Shown here: positions 7,511 through 15,206 of the stretch, in pieces
Position numbering within the stretch: position 1 is the stretch's first letter
How the letters are laid out: the number at the start of each line of letters is the position of its first letter
Translations under genes and position numbers: made by a program
The notes under the pieces: generated by a model
What the model saw: the letters and a program-made list of their open reading frames with translations, nothing else
Databases searched by the model: none
Told to the model about the DNA's origin: nothing
Assembly (NCBI GenBank): GCA_028293825.1
Contig: JAQGNY010000042.1
Span: 1 to 64,000, forward strand
Direction: 5' to 3'
Length of the DNA stretch: 64,000 nt
From: Verrucomicrobiaceae bacterium
GTDB lineage: Bacteria; Pseudomonadota; Gammaproteobacteria; Pseudomonadales; CAMLJR01

Positions 7511-8515
7511 TCAGACTTTGAGGGCGCGTAGTTTAACGACTAATGCTGTAATCAGCGAATCGGGCAAGGTCGCGTCCACGCGCAAATACCAATGCTGTTG
7601 ATTAGCGAAGGCTGCGCATTTAACCGCATCTTTTTCCGTCATCACTACCGGCAGCTCATCGCCGAATTGCAAATCACCGGCAACAAACCCGTGATGATCG
7701 GAAAAGGGATGCTCGATAGCGACACAACCGAGATCGCGCAATGACACAAAAAACCGCGAGGGATTGCCAATTCCCGCCAGTGCATGCGCGCGCGGATAAC
7801 GCTGACACCATTCACTCGGCGCGAGCGTTTCGCCACTCTGCAAATTAACGAATGCGCTCGGCGATAAATTAAATCCAAAACGTTTTTTATTGTCATCGTT
7901 AACATTGCTGCCATTAACCAGCACTGCATCGACACGACGTAACCGCTGCGGCAATTCACGTAGCGGACCCACCGGCAGGCAATGGCCGTTGCCAAAACCG
8001 CGCGCTTCGTCAATTACCGCAAATTCAATATCGCGCTGCAATGCGTAATGCTGCAAACCATCGTCGCAAATCAATACATCGCACGGTTCGAGCGATAACA
8101 ATTTGCGAGCGGCATCAGCGCGAGTCGGATCAATAACCACCGGACAACCGGTGCGACGTGCAATCAATAACGGCTCATCGCCGCTGCATTGCGCGCTGTC
8201 ATCAATGGAAACCAAATGGGGGAATTGCGGTGGTTGCGCGCGATAACCGCGACTGATCACGCCGGGATTAAAACCCGCACGCTGCAGCGCTTCGCACAAT
8301 GCAATTGTGACCGGTGTTTTACCGGTACCACCGACACTGATGTTGCCGATCACAATCACCGGCACTGACGCGCGCCAACTGCTTAATACGCCGTTTCGAT
8401 AAAAAAAATAACGCAGCAGAGTGATTGCACGAAAAATTAATTCAAGCGGCAGCAACAACCATAACCAACCGGGTTTAGCGTACCAACGGCGTTGCACAGA
8501 CAGCTCCACGCTCAT
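7511..8515 (-). CDS. lpxK: Tetraacyldisaccharide 4'-kinase
   Basis: Phosphorylates the 4' position of the lipid A disaccharide to give lipid IVA, at the cytoplasmic face of the inner membrane. 334 residues. An N-terminal membrane-associating helix ('[18 protein letters not shown]') precedes the Walker A motif '[17 protein letters not shown]' (about residues 56-72). '[15 protein letters not shown]', with the 'DDGLQ' of the family, follows near residue 150. Lies 36 bases downstream of exbD and 16 bases upstream of kdsB, so it belongs to a minus-strand envelope operon. Confidence 0.97.
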
Positions 8516-12891: not shown

Positions 12892-13902
12892 ATGAAAACA
12901 GATCGACTGAAACGACCCCTCGGTAAAGCTATCAGCCTCATCGTTGGCGCTGTTGCCTGCGCTTCGATATCGTTCGCCAATGCCGCGTCCACGTTCAACG
13001 CGCCGGCCGATGTGAAAGCTATTCACACTATCGAAGACGATCTCGCCACGCAGAAAAGCATGAAGGATCTGATCAAGTACTACGCACCCGATGCCGTGGT
13101 CTTGGACATTTTCGCGCCCGGCATCTATAAGGGCACCGACCAGATTTATAAAGGCTTCGAGGAGCAAATGGGCCCGATGCAAACGATGAAGAGCGATATG
13201 CCCGACATCAATGTGGCCACCAACGGCACGTTTGCTTGCGCGGCAATGACACTGCATTTCGACTCGACCATGAAAGATGGCAAAAAAGTCGAAGTCACCA
13301 TTCGCCAACTCGATGCATTCAAAAAGATCGACGGCAAATGGTTGATCGTGCAACAACACATCTCCATGCCAACCGATACTAAAACCGGCATGGCTGTGAT
13401 GAATGGTCCACTGCCAGTGCGCGGACCAATCAAATGGGCAGACAACGCAATTCCCGCATCGACCCAATCGCCTGCCGATGCTAAAGCAGATATCCGCAAG
13501 TTTATGGATGTGGGCGCGCTATCGACCAGCATTGAGCAATTAATGGCGTACTACGGTCCGGGCGACGACATCCTGATTTACGACACCTATTTCCCGGGCG
13601 AACTGCGCGGTCGCAAAGAAATCAACGATTACTACGCTGCAATGATGGGCAGCTACAGCAGCATCAAAGTGAAAATGCCGGAATTTGTCGCCGACTCCGA
13701 CGGTGCGTTCGGCATTCAGATCGATACACAAGATATGGAATTGAAAATGAAGGACGGCAGCACCAAATATATTTCGCTGCGTCAGAGCGATTGCATGCGC
13801 CGCGTTAACAACAAATGGTACTCGTTCTTTGAAATGATTTCGTATCCAGTCGATATGAAAACCGGAAAATCCATTGTCGAAAATCCCACTGCATTTAAAT
13901 AA
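12892..13902 (+). CDS. Secreted protein with two SnoaL/NTF2-like (DUF4440-type) domains
   Basis: 336 residues. A signal peptide (basic start, hydrophobic core, cleavage after 'SFANA' near residue 31) is followed by two homologous domains of about 140 residues. Domain 1 has 'YYAPDAVVLDIFAPGIYKG' and a strand ending 'DGKWLIVQQHISMP'; domain 2 repeats this as 'YYGPGDDILIYDTYFPGEL' and 'NNKWYSFFEMISYPVD'. Each ends in a D-x-K-T-G segment. The fold is that of ketosteroid-isomerase-like proteins; catalytic function cannot be assigned. GGTGGAG lies 7 bases before the ATG. An inverted repeat at 13920 probably ends both this gene and htpX. Confidence 0.8.
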   Translation: MKTDRLKRPLGKAISLIVGAVACASISFANAASTFNAPADVKAIHTIEDDLATQKSMKDLIKYYAPDAVVLDIFAPGIYKGTDQIYKGFEEQMGPMQTMKSDMPDINVATNGTFACAAMTLHFDSTMKDGKKVEVTIRQLDAFKKIDGKWLIVQQHISMPTDTKTGMAVMNGPLPVRGPIKWADNAIPASTQSPADAKADIRKFMDVGALSTSIEQLMAYYGPGDDILIYDTYFPGELRGRKEINDYYAAMMGSYSSIKVKMPEFVADSDGAFGIQIDTQDMELKMKDGSTKYISLRQSDCMRRVNNKWYSFFEMISYPVDMKTGKSIVENPTAFK

Positions 13903-13965: not shown

Positions 13966-14841
13966 TTACCTCATTTGCTCCAATGCCGCGATGCGCGCTT
14001 CCAGCGGCGGATGTGACGACATTAACTTCATAAACCCACCGCGACCACCGGCAATTCCGAACGCCATTAATTTCTCCGGCATATGCTGCTCTTCGTGAAT
14101 CGATTGCAGACGGCGCAGCGCTGCGATCATTTTCTCGCGCCCGGCCAATACTGAGCCGCCGACGTCCGCGCGAAATTCGCGATGGCGCGAAAAGCTCATC
14201 ACCACCATTGACGCAATCACACCCAGCGCAATTTCCAACACCAAATGAATTGCGAAATACGCCATGCCTGGACCGTCTTCATTTTTCAACACCACGCGAT
14301 CGATAAAACTGCCCACTGCACGCGCGATAAAAATAACGAAGGTGTTCAGCACACCTTGGATCAGCGTCAACGTCACCATATCGCCATTCGCCACGTGCGA
14401 AATTTCGTGGCCGATTACCGCTTCCGCTTCATCTTGCGTCATCCGATGTAACAGCCCTTCGGACACTGCAACCAATGAATTATTACGCGATGCGCCGGTG
14501 GCAAAGGCGTTCACTTCCGGCGACGGGTAGATCGCAATTTCCGGCATTTTTATTCCCGCTTGCGCGGAATGCCGCTGCACGGTTTCGAATAACCAGCGCT
14601 GTTGCGGCGTTGCGGGCTCGGTGATCACTTTCGCACCGACCGCCATTTTGGCCGACCATTTCGAAATCAACAGCGAGATGAATGCACCGCCGAAACCAAA
14701 GATTGCCGCAAAGCCCAACAATGCGCCGAAGTCGATTCCCTGCGCGGTGATGTACCGATTAAAACCGAGTACCGAACTCACAACCGATAACGTAATTAAT
14801 ACGCCGAGGTTGGTTAGCAAAAATAACGCAATGCGTTTCAT
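13966..14841 (-). CDS. htpX: Membrane zinc metalloprotease HtpX
   Basis: Inner-membrane M48 protease that degrades misfolded membrane proteins together with FtsH in E. coli. 291 residues. Two N-terminal helices (about residues 5-25 and 36-60), the zinc motif HEISH at residues 145-149 inside '[17 protein letters not shown]', then two further helices and the third-ligand region '[10 protein letters not shown]'. AGGAG lies about 10 bases before the ATG. A riboswitch-like leader with promoter and terminator sits about 150-340 bases upstream on the same strand, with no other gene between, so htpX is the gene it would control. Confidence 0.96.
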
Positions 14842-14990
14842 AAACTACAGCTCCTACAAGGTGAAAAAATTCAGCAGCAAGTAAATAATTCGGCAATCGT
14901 TTCATAAATTATCGATTGACCAGTCACTAACAACCAATAAATTTTCAGTGCATAAGCGACCTCTGCTTCACTGCGCACAAATTACGCGCG

Positions 14991-15031
14991 AAAAAAAACG
15001 GCCTGGTTGAAAGACACAGGCCGTTTTTTTT
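14991..15031 (-). terminator. Intrinsic terminator of the htpX leader
   Basis: On the minus strand CGGCCTG and CAGGCCG form a GC-rich stem flanked by runs of eight A and eight T, with a loop of about 11 bases. It is downstream of the riboswitch aptamer and upstream of htpX, the place of an expression platform. Its 5' half can alternatively pair with leader bases just upstream (see findings). Confidence 0.88.
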
Positions 15032-15170
15032 GAACAAGCCCCTGCCTTTCGGCAAGGTCTTGCTCACAATATTGCAGCGATAATCGACTGCTAATTGCTC
15101 GGGCACCGGGTTGTTCGACTAAGAATCAACCGTGATGACGATGCACCGACGAAGAGCTACTCCCCTTGAT
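15032..15170 (-). promoter_or_regulatory. yybP-ykoY class manganese riboswitch upstream of htpX
   Basis: The minus-strand RNA carries the two hallmark segments of the yybP-ykoY Mn2+ aptamer. The 5' one is CAAGGGGAGUAGC (15156-15168) and the 3' one is GAGCAAGACCUUGCC (15051-15065), about 100 nt apart. P1 is CAAGG (15164-15168) pairing with CCUUG (15053-15057). Right after the aptamer, bases 15032-15065 can form an alternative near-perfect hairpin (GAGCAAG with CUUGUUC, CCUUGCC with GGCAGGG) that uses the P1 3' strand. A terminator follows at 14991. In known examples Mn2+ stabilises P1 and turns on exporter genes such as mntP and alx; here the downstream gene is htpX. Aptamer identity is by motif, not by covariance search. 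Confidence 0.88.
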
Positions 15171-15177
15171 AGCCGCA

Positions 15178-15206
15178 ACGTTATGGAAATTTGCACGCTG
15201 CGTCAA
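15178..15206 (-). promoter_or_regulatory. Sigma-70-type promoter for the riboswitch-htpX transcript
   Basis: On the minus strand TTGACG (15201-15206) is separated by exactly 17 bases from TAACGT (15178-15183). The predicted start near 15171 is one or two bases before the aptamer P1 region, which is what a riboswitch leader needs. Confidence 0.7.

Follow-up and report, generated by a model that had tools for sequence, protein, structure and literature searches.

The 64,000-nucleotide stretch of DNA analysed here (the window) carries on its minus strand, at 15173-15049, a leader that belongs to the yybP-ykoY class of riboswitches, in its terC/ykoY branch, and that precedes htpX. This leader probably controls htpX by transcriptional antitermination. 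By analogy with its class, its ligand would be Mn2+ and the response would be of the ON type: in this bacterium and in one congener, an enzyme of membrane-protein quality control is probably turned on by manganese. An initial annotation of the window had proposed a Mn2+ riboswitch at this place, and the proposal is borne out at the level of sequence and structure, the pairing of leader and htpX being kept in the congener. The riboswitch class is a known one; for its target gene, htpX, no report of a link to a riboswitch was found in the open literature searched.

The gene behind the leader is indeed htpX, as first read: its product scores 422.9 bits against NCBIfam NF003965 (protease HtpX equivalog; cut-off 245) and 131 bits, above the cut-off, against Pfam PF01435 (M48). 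It is also the sole gene 3' of the leader on the minus strand of the window, the next gene (12892-13902) lying on the plus strand. This convergent neighbour encodes a 336-aa SnoaL/DUF4440-like protein whose Pfam domain is confined to the N-terminal half. The promoter, initially described as well placed, was upheld in part. The distance between its TTGACG -35 element and the aptamer is identical in the congener, where a 17-nt spacer separates the hexamer from a TATGTT -10 element, whereas the -10 element of the window is weak and a consensus promoter scan of the window made no call at TTGACG/TAACGT. The features flanking the riboswitch are the following:

15178-15206, minus strand: candidate promoter, -35 TTGACG (15206-15201), 17-nt spacer, weak -10 TAACGT (15183-15178)
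14851-14855, minus strand: putative Shine-Dalgarno sequence AGGAG of htpX, from sequence
13966-14841, minus strand: htpX, inner-membrane M48 metalloprotease of 291 aa (Pfam PF01435 and NCBIfam NF003965)

Both conserved segments on which the initial annotation relied are found on the minus strand (GGGGAGTAGC at 15165-15156 and GAGCAAGACCTTGCC at 15065-15051), together with the P1 pairing, which covaries in relatives. The aptamer is made of these elements:

15049-15173, minus strand: yybP-ykoY (Mn2+) aptamer, terC/ykoY branch (covariance model R1, described below; unique in the genome; helix covariation)
15164-15168, minus strand: switch helix (P1/P1.1) 5' strand CAAGG, pairing with CCTTG 15057-15053; the outer pair covaries
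15156-15163, minus strand: 5' side of loop L1, GGAGUAGC, invariant in the aligned members
15132-15139, minus strand: loop L3, GUCAUCAC, with the Mn-discriminating adenosine at 15136; GUCA invariant in siblings
15053-15057, minus strand: switch helix 3' strand CCTTG, common to the anti-switch hairpin (folding and covariation)

L1 (GGGGAGUAG, 15165-15157) and the 3' element AGACC (15060-15056) that closes the switch helix are both present and invariant in the alignment. Alignment to published L3 sequences gives GUC-A-UCAC for the L3 of the window and places the discriminating adenosine at A15136. This adenosine corresponds to A41 in L. lactis and to A48 in X. oryzae, where its mutation abolishes the Mn2+-docked state (PMC6754395). 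Folding of the leader was compared with that of shuffled sequences, none of which was as structured (z = -6.76; 0/200 shuffles).

Sibling leaders were collected over GTDB genomes with a pattern derived from the htpX leaders of the window and the congener, which combines GGGGAGTAGC, CGTCATNNC and AGACCTT with variable gaps. At least 119 stretches matched, where about 2 chance matches would be expected by our estimate. The genes behind these matches are independent of the pattern. Among the matches listed, the largest gene cluster comprises 73 homologous proteins, assigned to TerC by Pfam (PF03741) in the members tested; VTT (DedA-type) proteins, Na/Ca exchangers and Spo0M are also encoded there. 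Genes for TerC and for cation exporters are those with which yybP-ykoY riboswitches are known to be associated. The leader of the window departs from this habit, which is not defining for the RNA, since the gene behind it is htpX and not terC/alx, mntP, GDT1 or an exchanger.

The cores of 26 siblings, none of them an htpX leader, served to build the covariance model R1. This model scores the leader of the window at 70.6 bits (E of 9.4e-16 in 73.5 kb and 5.6e-14 genome-wide), a score that is partly circular because the training set was gathered with motifs common to the htpX leaders, and the congener leader at 75.5 bits. The leader is the single match of R1 in the genome, ranks 24th of the 53 members, and with filters off the runner-up near the locus reaches only 1.7 bits. 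The helices were not part of the collecting pattern and lie outside this circularity. In an alignment of the 53 members, fitted to the structure, all four aptamer helices covary: 93.1% of cells are paired and 291 are double-change cells, compared with 93.7 in shuffles, and far fewer are counted when the alignment is slid. The outer pair of the switch helix (helix 1) is AU in 22 members, CG in 16 and GC in 8.

The Infernal search with the Rfam yybP-ykoY model, suggested as a check in the initial annotation, formally failed. RF00080 (Rfam 15; 177 model positions) did not match the htpX leader at gathering (45 bits), nor at E ≤ 10 on a 601-base stretch. Nothing can be concluded from this failure, as the relatives of the terC branch escape RF00080 too: none of the 17 sibling leaders examined, which mostly precede terC, was detected, nor was the congener leader. 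RF00080 alone was thus rejected as arbiter of membership. It scores several Firmicutes siblings at 28-46 bits; since these are recognised and the neighbouring genes are the known company of the class, the branch falls within the class although the model represents it poorly, and many members of the regulon are probably unannotated. Other Rfam families (Thr leader, sRNAs) gave weak matches at the leader, driven by the terminator hairpin, and were discarded. The same genome has two RF00080 riboswitches, one before GDT1/UPF0016 (on C9) and one before a Na/Ca exchanger (on C10), showing that the Mn2+ riboswitch class is present in this organism. Both resemble the htpX leader in the GGGGAGUAGC element and in GCRAGAC near the 3' end, but they represent a different branch, in which L1 is followed by a hairpin and L3 contains CGUCAACAUAC. 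R1 gives them only 17-18 bits, against 70.6 for the htpX leader, which RF00080 in turn leaves unscored.

Downstream of the aptamer, the terminator announced initially was found as a strong intrinsic terminator at 15031-14991, beyond the interval first assigned to the riboswitch. The expression platform comprises:

15032-15065, minus strand: anti-switch hairpin GAGCAAG-A-CCTTGCC-GAAA-GGCAGGG-G-CTTGTTC (ligand-free state; MFE structure)
15038-15050, minus strand: antiterminator strand GAAAGGCAGGGGC, pairing with 15022-15009 when the switch helix is forced
15009-15022, minus strand: terminator 5' arm and loop, GGCCTGTGTCTTTC, partner of the antiterminator (folding, partner-swap permutations, covariation)
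14991-15031, minus strand: intrinsic terminator A8-CGGCCTG...CAGGCCG-T8 (MFE and covariation)

The CCTTGCC/GGCARGG helix of the anti-switch hairpin is kept in 15 leaders, across which 97.4% of the cells of the terminator helix are paired, with 13 double-change cells. Equilibrium folding of the full leader is dominated by the terminator in both states; switching was assessed by folding the transcript without the terminator 3' arm and by partner-swap permutations. With the switch helix imposed, and before the terminator 3' arm is made, the pairing of GAAAGGCAGGGGC with GGCCUGUGUCUUUC arises unaided in the MFE structure. Over the 15 leaders, antiterminator strands bind their own partners with a mean of -16.3 kcal/mol; the corresponding values are -14.3 with partners swapped and -9.5 with strands shuffled, and 0 of 600 permutations of swapped partners did as well as the own partners. 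Covariation of the antiterminator is modest: double changes occur in 5 cells (1/500 shuffles), four leaders having A-U in place of G-C at one position, and such counts can be inflated by kinship, the 15 leaders being related.

In the leader of the window, the switch helix, the anti-switch hairpin and the antiterminator/terminator are three mutually exclusive pairings. This three-way competition, which is common to the terC leaders, predicts that Mn2+ leads to antitermination and to htpX being ON. At low Mn2+, the 3' strand of the switch helix, CCUUGCC (15057-15051), would pair with GGCAGGG (15046-15040), the terminator 15031-14991 would form and transcription would stop short of htpX. At high Mn2+, L1 and L3 would dock around the metal and keep the switch helix CAAGG/CCUUG closed; the freed GAAAGGCAGGGGC would then pair with the terminator 5' arm GGCCUGUGUCUUUC, letting RNA polymerase continue into htpX. 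The predicted sign agrees with the L. lactis member, in which Mn2+ stabilises the switch helix P1.1 and antitermination (PMC11087558).

The L. lactis yybP-ykoY riboswitch, a transcriptional ON switch of known crystal structure, shares with the htpX leader L1, the L3 adenosine and a competing switch helix (PMC6754395, PMC11087558). The two differ in that the 3' strand of the L. lactis switch helix partitions directly into the terminator, whereas the htpX leader uses an additional anti-switch hairpin, its terminator being a structure apart. The likeness is closer with proteobacterial terC/alx leaders (L057, L107, L168, L208 and L211), which show the same aptamer, anti-switch hairpin, terminator and antiterminator but precede terC (PF03741), where the leaders of the window and the congener precede htpX. 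Several terC leaders have the platform of the two htpX leaders, CCTTGCC...GGCARGG followed by the terminator GGCCTGTGTCC...GGA.CAGGCC-T(n), and two of them (L208 and L211) carry CCTTGCCGAAAGGCAGGGGCTTG letter for letter as in the window.

Conservation upstream of htpX was examined in the congener (G001), which is of the same genus and is the only other genome of the family examined. Its leader (C145:7296-7454) is 67% identical to that of the window and lies directly upstream of htpX at 7545; the HtpX proteins are 64% identical. The aligned leaders have ATCAAGGGGAGTAGC, GCATCGTCATNACGGTT, CAACCCGGTG, AGCRAGACCTTGCCGAARGGCAGGG and ACGGCCTGNGTC in common. Among the neighbouring proteins of the window that were tested (ComEC, LolC/D/E and others), only HtpX matched in the 20 kb of the congener contig searched. 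Little of the sequence from terminator to ATG is conserved between the two species, yet both keep the aptamer, anti-switch hairpin, terminator and antiterminator; this suggests selection for holding leader and htpX together.

The expectation that relatives would carry the aptamer upstream of htpX thus holds for the congener, which has the same leader, and fails elsewhere: among 53 htpX loci searched with R1 on both strands, only that of the congener matched. In 391 genomes of the order, surveyed like other large R1 searches with stricter filters that may lose weak matches, R1 is present in 13, and htpX lies behind it only in the two congeners. One match aside (L176), the others examined precede GDT1 or, in nearly all cases, terC/alx, from which a small zinc-ribbon gene separates some of them. 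Being found in one genus only, the arrangement reflects a lineage-specific recruitment and not a general regulator of htpX, and a history in which htpX of this genus recruited a terC-type leader is plausible.

The same distribution lends some weight to another explanation, in which the aptamer is genuine but the leader is a leftover of a terC-type locus, or produces mainly a short terminated RNA, while a separate promoter 3' of the terminator accounts for most of the transcription of htpX. Relatives have this leader before terC, and the genome's own terC (on C18) has no such leader by R1. There is also room for a promoter in the 150 nt between terminator and ATG, where a GATAAT-like hexamer occurs near 14916-14911. 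We nevertheless consider this explanation improbable, since two species whose HtpX proteins are 64% identical keep the aptamer, anti-switch hairpin, terminator and antiterminator before htpX although the spacer has diverged, and since no obvious promoter is seen in the sequence of the congener spacer.

Control of htpX by antitermination could also operate with another divalent ion suited to HtpX (for example Mg2+, Fe2+, Cd2+ or Zn2+) bound to the same fold. The target is a zinc metalloprotease and not a manganese gene, and L3 reads UCAU here where L. lactis has UCAA. Yet UCAU is common in siblings before terC, the discriminating adenosine is kept and is likewise followed by U in X. oryzae (A48-U49; PMC6754395), and L1 is invariant; a change of ligand is therefore very unlikely. 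Chance resemblance of an unrelated structured leader or of an sRNA with a terminator, which the lack of an Rfam match might suggest, is effectively refuted by the branch model (E of 9e-16), the uniqueness of the match genome-wide, its conservation in the congener and the covariation.

Known Mn2+ riboswitches precede genes for exporters and for TerC-family metalation factors. If the control of a membrane protease by Mn2+ is true, a cis-acting sensor, kept in two diverged species, would link manganese overload to membrane-protein quality control. A riboswitch of this kind before htpX fits two observations in B. subtilis: purification of the TerC protein MeeF, which metalates exported enzymes together with the Sec machinery, brings HtpX and FtsH along (PMC10550928), and proteolysis of the transporter MgtE by YqgP/FtsH is activated when Mn is in excess (PMC7231995). 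In both, as is predicted here, Mn excess or TerC proteins are tied to membrane proteases, but the link in B. subtilis is at the protein level, whereas here an RNA acting in cis ahead of htpX would provide it. Excess MntP is itself toxic to the membrane in E. coli (PMC11647493). Quality control of membrane proteins under Mn load may thus be the purpose of the switch, and a Mn-induced membrane protease would suit either a role as TerC partner or the removal of damaged membrane proteins. We lean slightly towards a direct induction of the inner-membrane protease by Mn2+ load, which would extend the regulon from export and metalation to quality control, with HtpX acting in a TerC/secretion-linked Mn response or clearing mis-metalated membrane proteins.

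Three further arrangements were noted among the sibling leaders. In several Burkholderiales-like genomes, terC-branch Mn2+ riboswitches occur as divergent pairs, one on each strand and separated by a few hundred bases (among them G764 C118:19807-20245, G799 C4:73194-73729, G842 C14:12046-12491 and G883 C18:12080-12595), possibly controlling two Mn-controlled genes from one intergenic region. In L160, L169, L171 and L172, the riboswitch lies about 100-500 bases before the gene of a small zinc-ribbon protein (CPxC...CPxCrGvWLDRGELD); in L160 and L172, where the sequence is long enough, this gene sits between the leader and terC/alx. In Firmicutes (L069, L076, L106, L137, L138 and L151), the aptamer is found upstream of Spo0M-like genes, one of them confirmed by Pfam, which constitute another non-transporter target.
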